Part shown: piece after piece, positions 56,511-61,009 of the stretch
How positions within the stretch are numbered: position 1 is the first letter of the stretch
Layout of the letters: each line of letters begins with the position of its first letter
Assembly: GCF_001592745.1 (NCBI RefSeq)
Contig: NZ_LUKD01000001.1
Span: 1,632,848 to 1,696,847, forward strand
DNA length: 64,000 nucleotides
Origin: Bdellovibrio bacteriovorus
GTDB taxonomy: Bacteria; Bdellovibrionota; Bdellovibrionia; Bdellovibrionales; Bdellovibrionaceae
Direction: 5' to 3'
Made by a program: the position numbers and the translations under genes
The notes under the pieces: model-generated
Told to the model about the DNA's origin: nothing
Databases searched by the model: none
Seen by the model: the letters and a program-made list of their open reading frames with translations, nothing else

Positions 56511-57113
56511 ATGACTACAACACGTTTTTTCGTCTACGGATCTTTCTGTGAAGGCATGGTTCACTTTAACAAGATCCAAAATTTCTTGGAATCTTCAGTA
56601 CTTGCGCGCGTTAAAGCGACGGCTTACCGATTAAAAGTAGGCTTTCCGGCTATCGTTAAAGCCGGCAGTGACCTGGTTCCAGGTCAGCTAGTGGAACTGA
56701 AAAGCTCAGAGTTGCTTTTGAGCCTCATGGATGAGTTCCACGGCTACAACCGCCACGATCCAGATCAGAGTCTTTATTCTAGAGAAGAAGTGGATGTGTA
56801 TCCAGAAGGCTCATCGGCTCCAGTCCGCGCTTGGATTTACTTCCTAAATCCATTAAAACTTCCGGTGAATGCCGCTGTGATTCCTGGCGGAGACTGGAAA
56901 CGTTCTCTGGAAGAACATCCATCTTTGACGTCAAAGCTTTCAGAAAAGCAAGTCACGTACATTCAAAAGCTAGGAAAATCGACTGGCCGAGAGATTGTTC
57001 CTATTGACCTGACTTTGTATCGCGAACTCATGAACTTAGAGCTGATCGTCGATAAAGGTCGTCGTTTAGCTTTATCCAAACTTGGCCAAGAGGTTTATAA
57101 GCATCTTGCCTAG
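56511..57113 (+). CDS. Gamma-glutamylcyclotransferase-like protein
   Basis: A 200-residue protein with the GGCT-fold start FFVYGSFCEGMVHFNKI, then FPAIVKAGSDLVPGQLVELK and DEFHGYNRHDP. Members include gamma-glutamylcyclotransferases and gamma-glutamylamine cyclotransferases. The C-terminal 80 residues extend beyond the usual GGCT length and may form an extra helical domain. The ATG has GGGGGG four bases upstream. The last bases overlap the trmL start. Confidence 0.85.
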   Translation: MTTTRFFVYGSFCEGMVHFNKIQNFLESSVLARVKATAYRLKVGFPAIVKAGSDLVPGQLVELKSSELLLSLMDEFHGYNRHDPDQSLYSREEVDVYPEGSSAPVRAWIYFLNPLKLPVNAAVIPGGDWKRSLEEHPSLTSKLSEKQVTYIQKLGKSTGREIVPIDLTLYRELMNLELIVDKGRRLALSKLGQEVYKHLA

Positions 57114-57591
57114 TTCTGATTCGCAAAAACTTTTCCGCATTGTTCTGATCGAGCCCGAAATTCCGCAAAACACCGGAAACATCGGGCGCACCTGTGTTGC
57201 CACCAACTGCGAACTGCACTTGGTTGGCAAAATGGGTTTTGAAATCAACGACACCAACTTAAAACGCGCCGGCCTTGATTACTGGCCCCATCTTTCTTGG
57301 CATCGCCACGCCACGTTTGAAGACTGGTGGAGCAAAGTCGAAGACACATCCCGCATCTGGCTCTTCACAACAAAAACAAAACGCACATATTTCGAACCCA
57401 AATTCCAACCAGGCGACTGGTTCGTCTTCGGAAAAGAAACAAAAGGCCTAGATCCTGACCTCTTACTAAAATACCCAAACCAAACAGTAACAATCCCCAT
57501 GATCGGCGAAGGAGCGCGCAGCCTAAACCTCGCTACTAGCGTTGCTATTGCTGCTTACGAAGGGGTTCGTCAGGTTAACTATTCGAAGTAG
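57106..57591 (+). CDS. trmL: tRNA (cytidine/uridine-34-2'-O)-methyltransferase (SpoU family)
   Basis: A 161-residue single-domain SPOUT enzyme: IPQNTGNIGRTCVATNCELHL, FGKETKGLDPDLL and ARSLNLATSVAIAAYEG form the knotted SAM site. It methylates the wobble base of tRNA-Leu. The start is ambiguous; TTG at 57106 (eight-base overlap with the upstream stop) is chosen over TTG at 57082. A long palindromic element begins 21 bases after its stop. Confidence 0.9.
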   Translation: MPSSDSQKLFRIVLIEPEIPQNTGNIGRTCVATNCELHLVGKMGFEINDTNLKRAGLDYWPHLSWHRHATFEDWWSKVEDTSRIWLFTTKTKRTYFEPKFQPGDWFVFGKETKGLDPDLLLKYPNQTVTIPMIGEGARSLNLATSVAIAAYEGVRQVNYSK

Positions 57592-57611: not shown

Positions 57612-57783
57612 GATTTGCGCTTGGAAAGTGGGCTTAGCCTTAACCGCTGAGTCGCTTCGGCGGGCACGCCCTCCAGGCTCAGTCGGTGCCGAGCCTTTGG
57701 CTCGGTTCGCGCCATCGTGGCGCCACCGAAGGCCCTTCTTCGGACTCATCGCTTAAGGCTAAGCCCACTTCCAAGCGCAAATC
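57612..57783. repeat. Palindromic element A (conserved core, self-complementary arms)
   Basis: Outer arms of 32 and 31 bases, left arm starting GATTTGCGCTTGGAAAG; the right arm is its complement with one deletion. A core of about 110 bases has three internal hairpins, including CCGAGCC-TTT-GGCTCGG and GCGCCA-TCG-TGGCGC. Its core is homologous, inverted, to element B. No protein gene is supported. Confidence 0.8.
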
Positions 57784-58063
57784 TGGTGTAAAGAAAATCT
57801 TTTTCGGAAAAGAACTGATGTACTTGTATGCGAGAATTTAGAAATGCGTAGGAGTTTTCTGTAAGCTTCCGCGAGTGGTTTTTCTGGCCTTCGGCGTTTT
57901 TTAAAAAGCGCTATGAGTATTAATTAAAAAATTTTAAAAGACGAAACCAACTTAATTTTAGTCATCAAAATATCCCATGATTATTTGCTGCTGCTTCTGA
58001 CGCAAAGACGAAGACGGGGAATGAAGAGGAAAAATAAAGTTCCACAAAGTTAGCTTATGCGAG
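57784..58063. other. Intergenic stretch between two palindromic elements
   Basis: About 280 AT-rich bases without a supported gene. A GCG-TTTTTTAAAAA-CGC self-complementary run lies at about 57896. It probably carries part of the secA promoter region. Confidence 0.5.
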
Positions 58064-58216
58064 CCTTCTTGGAGGGGAATTTAGGTGGTGTGTCTCCGAA
58101 GAGAGGCCTTTGCCGGCGCCACGATGGCGCGAACCGCACAAAGTGCGGCGGCAACTGAGCCCGGATGGCGTGCCGAACGAAGCGAGAAACACCACCTAAA
58201 TTCCCCTCCAAGAAGG
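58064..58216. repeat. Palindromic element B (conserved core, self-complementary arms)
   Basis: Perfect 28-base arms, left arm starting CCTTCTTGGAGGGGAATTT. The core is inverted relative to element A and shares the run GCGCCATCGTGGCGCC and the block CTCGCTTCG...GGCACGCC. Its internal hairpin is CCGCAC-TTT-GTGCGG. Arms are unrelated to those of element A. Confidence 0.85.
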
Positions 58217-58333
58217 CGTCGTCCGAAGCCAACCTTTCGTCGAGGAAATGTATCTTTTCCGAATGAATGACGCAGACTAGTTATGGCACGTTACCTTGCC
58301 GCCTTAATGGATTTGGGTCTATTCTCTAAGACT

Positions 58334-61009
58334 ATGATTACACAAGCGCTTACAAAAATTTTCGGTACGAAGCATGATCGTGAAATGAAGAAGATCCAGC
58401 CTACAGTGGATCGTATCAATGCCCTAGAGCCAAAGATGGCGGCTCTCACGGATGAACAACTTAAAGCAAAGACTCCTGAGTTCCAAGAGCGTCTTCGAAA
58501 AGGCGAAACTGTTGATGATATTTTGCCAGAGGCGTTTGCGGTTTGTCGTGAAGCTTCGAAGCGTGTTTTGGGAATGCGCCATTACGATGTTCAGATGATC
58601 GGTGGTATCGTTCTGAATCGCGGTAACATTGCCGAGATGAGAACGGGTGAAGGTAAGACGCTTGTGGCGACTTTGCCGGTTTATTTGAATGCGCTTACTG
58701 GTAAGGGTGTGCATCTTGTGACAGTGAATGACTACCTAGTACGTCGTGACGCAGAATGGATGGGTCGTCTTTACGGTTGGTTGGGTCTTACGACAGGTAT
58801 CATCGTTCATGGTTTGAACGACCAACAACGTAAGCAAATGTACGCTTGTGATATCACTTACTGCACGAACAATGAATTGGGCTTCGACTATCTTCGTGAC
58901 AACATGAAGTTTGATTTGAATGACTACGTTCAACGTGGTCACAACTTCGCGATCGTGGATGAGTGTGACTCCATCCTTGTCGACGAAGCTCGTACGCCGC
59001 TGATCATTTCAGGTCCTGCGGAATCTTCAACGGATAAATATTATGCCGTGAACGCGATCATCCCTCACTTGAAGCGTGATGTTCACTTCACGATGGAAGA
59101 AAAAACGAAAACAGCTTCTTTGACGGACGAAGGTAACGCGAAAGTTGAAGAGTTGATGGGTCTTTCAAATCTTTACGATCCACAAAACATCGAAATTCTT
59201 CACCACGTTTACCAAGGTTTGAAAGCTTACTACCTTTATCGTCGTGACGTAGAATACATGATCAAAGATGGCGAAATCGTGATCGTGGATGAGTTCACGG
59301 GCCGTTTGATGCCGGGTCGTCGTTGGAGTGATGGTCTTCACCAAGCGATCGAAGCTAAAGAAGGCGTTGAAGTTAAATCTGAAAACCAAACTTTGGCGAC
59401 AATCACTTTCCAAAACTACTTCCGTATGTACACGAAGCTTTCAGGTATGACGGGTACGGCGGATACAGAAGCGGTTGAGTTCAAAAAAATCTACAATCTT
59501 GATGTGAATGTGATTCCAACAAACAGACCTATTCAGCGTAAAGACCAAGAAGACGTTGTGTATAAGTCTGAAAAAGCAAAATACAAAGCGATCACTGCCG
59601 ACATCAAAGAGCGTATCGCCAAAGGTCAGCCGATCCTTGTTGGTACCGAGTCTATTGAAAAATCTGAATCTTTAAGCGCGTATCTTCGTAAAGAAGGTAT
59701 TAAGCACGAAGTTCTTAATGCGAAACAACACGAACGCGAAGCAGAGATCGTAGCGCAAGCCGGTCGTAAGGGCGCTGTGACTATTGCTACGAACATGGCC
59801 GGTCGTGGTACCGACATCATGCTGGGTGGTAACGCAGAAATGTTGGCAAAAGCTTCTGTAGGCAATGATGATTCACCAGAATTCCAAGAAGCCTTGGCAA
59901 AAGTTAAACCTCAAGTTGAAAAAGAGCGTGCGGAAGTGCGTGAACTTGGCGGTCTTTATATCATCGGTACGGAAAGACACGAATCTCGTCGTATCGACAA
60001 TCAGCTTCGTGGTCGTGCTGGTCGTCAAGGGGACCCAGGTGAGTCTCGCTTCTATCTATCTCTAGAAGATAAATTGATGAGAATCTTCAATGGTGAGCGT
60101 ATCCAGAAAATCATGGAAATGCTGAACATTCCTGAAGATGAACCTATCACAGCGAAAATGGTGACAAACGCCATTGAAGGTGCGCAACGCAAAGTCGAAG
60201 GTCACAACTTTGATATTCGTAAAAACTTGATGGAGTACGACTCTGTCATGAACGCGCAAAGAAACGCGATCTATGGCATGCGCCGTAAGGTCTTAGAAGG
60301 CCAAGAGATCGAAAGAACCACTTTGGACTGGTTGGGTGACGTCGTTTCTAATCTTCTTGATACTTACGCTCCAGAGGGCGGCAAGAAAGAAGATTGGAGC
60401 ATGGATGGTTTGAACAATTCTCTTGTTCAAAGCTTCGGTTTCAAAATTGATTTTGCTAACATGCCAATCAACTCTGATACGGTGACAGACGCTGTGAAAA
60501 ACGGTGTTAAAGAAGTTTTTGAAAAACAAAAATCTTCAATGGGTCCTTTCTTTGAACAAGTTCAAAAAATGATTCTTCTTCAAAGCATCGACCATCACTG
60601 GAAGAACCACCTTTACGTGATCGATAAATTAAAAGAAGGTATCGGTCTTCGTGGTTATGCTCAGAAAGATCCTTTGATCGAGTATAAAAAAGAAGCCTTT
60701 AAAGCTTTTGAAAACTTGAATAACACGATCAAGAGCGATGCGATCGAAAAAATCATGCGTGTTCAATTGGTAGCGCAGCAATCAGAAGAACAAGTTCTTG
60801 AAAGCTTGCGCCCGGAAGAAGCGGATCTGGATGAGTTGGATTATTCTTCTCCTTCAGAAACTGACATTGGTCACACTCTTCCAGAAGTTGAGACTTCGGC
60901 AGATGCACCAACACGTAAGATGACTTTCCAAAGCGGACCTCGTGATGATCGTCCGATGAATCGTGAAGAACGTCGTCGCCTTGAAAAACAAGGTAAAGGA
61001 AAAAGATAA
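58334..61009 (+). CDS. secA: Preprotein translocase ATPase SecA
   Basis: An 891-residue SecA: Walker A region [32 protein letters not shown], preprotein-binding and helical scaffold parts, [18 protein letters not shown], and [20 protein letters not shown]. It drives proteins through SecYEG. The C-terminus ends [17 protein letters not shown] without the usual zinc-binding SEC-C motif (CxCxSGxxxxxC[HC]). The ATG at 58334 ([11 protein letters not shown]) matches the family start; two earlier Met codons have no ribosome-binding site. Confidence 0.97.

Follow-up and report, generated by a model that had tools for sequence, protein, structure and literature searches.

Dispersed in the genomes of predatory Bdellovibrio we identified an apparently undescribed family of non-coding hairpins, in which a stem of 20-45 bp lies beneath a conserved multi-hairpin core of ~90 nt. 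On the strength of sequence comparisons, we favour with moderate confidence the reading that these are dispersed, non-autonomous hairpins whose core is under selection and whose arms may be kept complementary mainly by the copying of one arm to the other at the DNA level.

Two convergent elements between trmL and secA

Two members of the family face each other in the window, the 64,000-nt stretch of Bdellovibrio bacteriovorus DNA under study. Element A (57612-57783, + strand) and element B (58063-58217, - strand) form, with the spacer between them, a block of ~630 bp located between trmL (57082-57591, +), so named because its translation is that of a TrmL-like SPOUT tRNA methyltransferase, and the downstream gene secA (58283-61009, +). 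Only 21 bp separate the stop codon of the trmL-like gene from the start of element A. The preliminary description had given the same extent for A and had placed B at 58064-58216, which we corrected by one base at either end.

Element A consists of a left arm (57612-57653, +; GATTTGCGCTTGGAAAGTGGGCTTAGCCTTAACCGCTGAGTC), a folded core (57654-57742, +) and a right arm that is the complement of the left (57743-57783, +). Its arms were delimited from inverted repeats and the arm table, and its core from a covariance model (CM) hit (G000:C1:1690486-1690605), the consensus structure and covariation. The parts of the core are a GGC/GCC helix, a GCC-TCC-GGC hairpin, a TCGGTG/CACCGA helix with two hairpins, and GGTTCGCGCCATCGTGGCGCC. 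The spacer between the convergent elements (57784-58062) is non-coding and AT-rich, with a sequence not common to the spacers of other pairs. Element B carries its core in inverted orientation (58097-58183, -; CM hit G000:C1:1690928-1691045, minus strand, 129 bits) between two arms defined by an inverted repeat, at 58063-58096 (-; the right arm in element orientation) and 58184-58217 (-; the left arm).

The cores of A and B match at 88 % over 42 nt as an inverted repeat and at 78 % over ~90 nt when the core of A is matched as DNA to B, so that the first impression of two palindromes with a common core once B is inverted proved correct. Their arms are unrelated in sequence, and each pair is self-complementary, as had also been reported: the arms of A form 39 Watson-Crick pairs over 42 columns, with one bulge and two mismatches, and those of B pair at 33 of 34 positions, including 28/28 of the outer 28 bases. 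Predicted folding energies were -117.7 kcal/mol for A (z -12.6) and -100.6 kcal/mol for B (z -10.6), values equalled by no shuffled sequence in either case.

Distribution and anatomy of the family

A DNA search of this genome returned 20 matches to the element, A's own arms included, and a search with a covariance model built from 17 copies identified 23 copies, A and B among them. The same approach found the element in 22 of the 24 Bdellovibrio genomes sampled, at 3-29 copies each, and no copies in the 16 genomes searched from the rest of the order; G006, almost certainly B. bacteriovorus HD100, has 12. Across the 192 genomes of the phylum that were searched, members were also present in one genome of a sister genus (G164) and in three distant genomes of family f16. 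These members share the layout of the Bdellovibrio copies, with a long stem of paired arms and the motif CGCCATCC.GGCTC. The exact core pattern was found among named genome records in Bdellovibrio MAGs only. Rfam 15 gave no family above the gathering threshold, its MIR918 match being spurious (29.6 bits vs 268), and left the element unmatched at the other loci searched. Phage and plasmid collections and a pattern search of viral contigs gave no match, and a literature search found no described palindromic repeat of Bdellovibrio. In a distant member of the phylum (G162; loci L115, L123 and L130), the outermost flanks form an extra near-perfect inverted repeat of ~25 bp that differs between copies, the inner stem being mostly conserved.

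Arm analyses were carried out on 168 copies from the genus. The arms have a median length of 32 bp and are 94 % Watson-Crick paired. Their outer end often reads GATTTG...CAAATC, a recurring end of 6-8 bp beyond which the rest of the arm is unrelated between copies, and in many copies the left flank reads GCTTCGAGCGACG and the right flank TGTGCTG. The core is made up of a short GGC/GCC helix, the GCC-TCC-GGC hairpin and a 6-bp helix bearing two hairpins. The last hairpin of the core is missing altogether from the copy at L104:3066-3169 and is lengthened in L227:1327-1477 by a nested self-complementary insertion. Taken over all copies and in element orientation, G and T make up 65 % of the left arm. 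The element is not followed by a T-tract.

Covariation between the arms, which the preliminary description had singled out for checking, was strong, with scores of 0.69 and 0.79 in alignments of 66 and 84 copies; controls reached ≤ 0.14 when slid and 0.15-0.17 when shuffled. All paired positions of the arms are variable on both sides, and 96-97 % of alignment cells pair in these CM-fitted alignments, which are biased towards the model; the arms were independently re-derived by plain complementarity. Within a genome, inner arms of different copies are identical at a level of 0.475, hardly above the 0.432 of shuffled sequence, and the cores at 0.77. The further copies with paired yet diverse arms for which the preliminary description had called are thus present in number, in the form of the 168 copies of the genus. 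Outside the elements, the arms of this genome gave chance matches only (E about 5), in agreement with the earlier view that they are not plain flanking sequence. Guides or copies of genes were also considered for the arms and were rejected, the arms being without any other genomic match.

Copies sit just 3′ of genes and avoid divergent promoter regions: by counts made from simple ORF calls, 116 of 158 copies have an upstream gene that runs in their own direction, and only 8 of the 158 lie between divergent genes. Close neighbours, 100-600 bp apart, were convergent in 16 of 16 pairs, with no case of a direct or divergent arrangement. The loci concerned are positions 57612-58217 of the window, L102, L172, L188-L190, L250, L251, L268, L285 and L286, and HD100 has two further convergent pairs (1191842+/1192166- and 2138246+/2138528-). 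The spacers of such pairs are non-coding, AT-rich and unrelated save between orthologous pairs.

One HD100 copy, at 1,339,139-1,339,257 (+) (L284:1140-1258), falls inside APsRNA6 on the same strand. APsRNA6 is an attack-phase transcript of HD100 (1,338,787-1,339,441, +) whose promoter contains a FliA motif (PMC3627812). As a check on the HD100 coordinates, a c-di-GMP-I riboswitch was found to fall within the published coordinates of merRNA. It follows from the published HD100 data that at least one copy is transcribed in the element-sense direction. Upstream of the element, APsRNA6 also contains an ORF of 92 codons, and its end lies close to a second, degenerate copy in convergent orientation; the transcript may therefore be an mRNA whose 3′ UTR includes the element.

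Origin of arm complementarity

We compared the arms at the 21 loci common to this genome (G000) and G001, which is ~92 % identical to it. The arms of A and B are the same as those of their G001 orthologues except for one bulged A. Over all G000/G001 orthologues, 44 double changes, altering both sides of a pair, stand against 24 single changes, and the double changes comprise 17 of transition type and 27 of transversion type. The degree of change varied between loci, from one double change in L086/L106 and three, two of them adjacent, in L041/L079, to several in L095/L075, where there are paired indels too. Indels paired across both arms were also seen in L100/L184 (38 vs 36 bp), L111/L087 and L107/L185; in the most diverged arms alignment is uncertain and indel counts are inflated. 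At L098/L081, L109/L083 and L097/L084 the arms have been nearly or largely replaced and the new pair is complementary again. The trmL-secA locus of G007 likewise retains its convergent pair with wholly different arms. Some of the whole-arm replacements could represent homologous import from a diverged strain, since the flanks beside L098 are diverged as well. The left arm of L101 (L101:2991-3111) is identical to that of L078 (L078:3023-3143), whereas its right arm differs by several bases; the arms of L078 match each other. The L101 mosaic is possibly a conversion intermediate or a recombinant. Paired change at fixed loci, together with covariation, supports the proposal of the preliminary description that the arms are regenerated or selected as pairs.

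Distinct mismatches among 2445 arm pairs were dominated by C·T (87), followed by A·C (41), G·U (22) and G·A (6), the rarer classes being T·T (6), C·C (6), G·G (1) and A·A (0). When 128 terminator-like hairpins from the same loci were scored, with the equal penalty for all mismatches that was applied to the arms, G·U was the commonest class (36), ahead of A·C (17), C·T (5) and G·A (4). Selection on an RNA helix would give a spectrum of the terminator type; that of the arms differs, which argues against an RNA helix as the cause. The scarcity of G·U and of A·C, its equivalent on the opposite strand, points to pairing at the DNA level, and the surplus of C·T relative to G·A shows that it is one strand that counts. 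This asymmetry could arise if C·T is poorly corrected or if G·A is tolerated on the opposite strand. By lineage group the ratio of C·T to G·A is strong in two (32:3 and 49:2) and weak in G000/G001 (6:1); the f16 copies gave 13:1.

The mismatch spectrum and the paired indels are the reasons for which we favour a DNA-level process in the upkeep of the arms. In the mechanism we propose, one strand, when single-stranded during replication, transcription or transposition, would fold into the hairpin, and a mutation or indel in one arm would be copied to the other by intrastrand template switching or by mismatch repair within the hairpin (quasipalindrome correction). A single event would then bring new sequence into both arms, which would drift fast and stay paired. 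The core would be held by selection, either through recognition by a dispersing protein or through a function at the 3′ ends of genes. Template switching has been documented to create perfect stems and to preserve them (PMC8794818). At the level of pattern, our data agree with the one-step homogenisation and paired indels expected of quasipalindrome correction. Among the points on the other side, single-step copying across a folded core of ~90 nt exceeds the typical length of a quasipalindrome event, and the C·T excess is weak in G000/G001 alone (6 vs 1).

The main rival to copying is selection for a hairpin or cruciform of Watson-Crick-paired DNA, in which one strand, as ssDNA, must adopt a strict fold so that a recombinase, transposase or nucleoid protein can bind it; the arms would be selected as pairs, with any sequence allowed, and no copying would take place. 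Such selection could yield much of the same pattern. A hairpin of one DNA strand suits the scarce G·U and the imbalance of 87 C·T to 6 G·A, and dispersal and the uniformly convergent close pairs (16/16) suit a recombination substrate. However, paired indels and adjacent multi-base paired changes would each require two independent hits between genomes that are ~92 % identical, and neither a Y1 transposase nor a reverse transcriptase tracks the element. We regard this alternative as rather unlikely.

Compensatory mutation in a functional transcript of the element strand, such as a 3′-UTR stabiliser, a terminator or a regulatory RNA, is likewise an unlikely source of the pairing. Strong covariation of both stem and core, the position of most copies behind a co-directional gene and of few between divergent ones, and the same-strand copy within APsRNA6 all speak for such an RNA. 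Yet G·U, the usual tolerated intermediate, occurs at just 22 of the 2445 arm pairs and is near zero in most core helices, whereas it abounds in the terminators found at these loci. Double changes show no bias towards the route between G-C and A-U, paired indels are not accounted for, and the T-tract of a terminator is lacking behind the element. The core could have a role as RNA under copying as well as under DNA-hairpin selection, but such a role leaves the arms unexplained. The suggestion that these are ordinary repeats of the MITE or REP type, small, intergenic and present in many copies, with arms captured from flanking or target sequence on insertion, is very improbable, because the arms are absent from element-free sites and from elsewhere in the genome and still change pairwise at fixed loci after insertion.

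Dispersal, related systems and significance

The sites occupied by the element are mostly non-orthologous between species and lineage-specific; among the fetched copies, this genome shares 0-4 loci with any genome other than G001. The A-spacer-B block is absent from G009, where the flanks are 81-89 % identical and no copy of an arm remains at the site, and G009 also lacks elements at the L098 and L095 loci. Element-free sites in G009 and G018 are imprecise, with no clean boundary or target duplication readable. Dispersal over non-orthologous sites favours mobility at some time. The preliminary description had left three readings of the family side by side, a mobile palindrome, a structured RNA and a DNA cruciform; a DNA-level process for the arms and past mobility are now favoured, and a host function is possible.

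Several specific routes of dispersal were considered. A, spacer and B do not form one transposon with cargo, the spacers being non-coding and unrelated between pairs, although the block as a whole is absent from G009. Nor does the arm represent target sequence duplicated on insertion, the element-free sites being without an arm copy. Reverse transcriptase (PF00078) is absent from G000, G001, G005, G007 and most element carriers, and mobility by a retron, DGR or group II intron was set aside on that account. Y1 (RAYT-like) transposase genes number 1-10 in most genomes, with none in G008 (12 elements) or G013 (14 elements), and a link to RAYT was judged inconsistent, as Y1 genes do not track element copies. 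G012 shares with G022 the highest number of copies, 29, and has ten Y1 genes, the most in the genomes sampled for Y1, a coincidence not seen in other genomes. More speculatively, the family may be a selfish or domesticated DNA hairpin with obligately convergent neighbours, a mobile palindrome in which the conserved core would organise a strand-specific single-stranded fold and the arms, private to each copy, would be continually re-templated from each other, possibly by dedicated machinery; we put this forward tentatively, as a possibility on the unlikely side.

In integron attC sites a single strand folds and the paired sequence is free, with conserved outer ends and a variable middle. The Bdellovibrio element has the reverse layout, its middle being conserved and its stem free, and it lacks the attC end boxes RYYYAAC/GTTRRRY, ending instead in GATTTG/CAAATC. 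It also differs from MITEs, which have conserved terminal inverted repeats, in having only the 6-8 bp of GATTTG/CAAATC in common. Fungal mitochondrial double-hairpin elements (DHE) are small dispersed intergenic hairpin repeats, and we are not aware of any account in which a conserved multi-hairpin core is carried by a wholly free, re-paired stem. The RHE of sponge mitochondria (PMC2800124) are similar in being small, dispersed, intergenic and hairpin-forming. REP and REPIN sequences with their RAYTs (PMC3733652, PMC3116915) are also palindromic, intergenic and multi-copy, and Y1 transposases are present in Bdellovibrio; however, REPs measure 20-40 bp and carry a conserved GTAG or CGTC tag, compared with ~150-170 bp and free arms here, and neither tag was found in the columns conserved across alignments of 17 and 150 copies. 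The perfect inverted repeats of Nematomorpha mitochondria, for which repeat conversion has been proposed, resemble the element in that their arms remain identical while the sequence changes (PMC6649704). They have no common core and lie within coding genes, unlike the Bdellovibrio elements with their conserved core and location between genes.

Quasipalindrome correction in E. coli and yeast (PMC7202029, PMC3820800, PMC8794818) is similar in that one arm templates the other, imperfect repeats become perfect and multi-base compensatory changes arise in one step. It is known, however, from scattered mutation hotspots or short stems of rRNA and miRNA, whereas in Bdellovibrio all copies of a dispersed family would be subject to it, over arms of ~32 bp placed around a folded core of ~90 nt and to the point of complete arm divergence.

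Compensatory change in a stem is usually read as proof of a functional RNA. In the 168-copy set, stems covary at nearly every pair without G·U intermediates and with both arms altering length together, a combination expected if copying between DNA arms is at work. The family thus cautions that covariation alone is insufficient evidence of RNA function. Selection and template switching can be set against each other directly in HD100, a cultivable predator with 12 copies. For the predatory bacteria that carry it, the family represents an unannotated, recurrent feature at the 3′ ends of genes.
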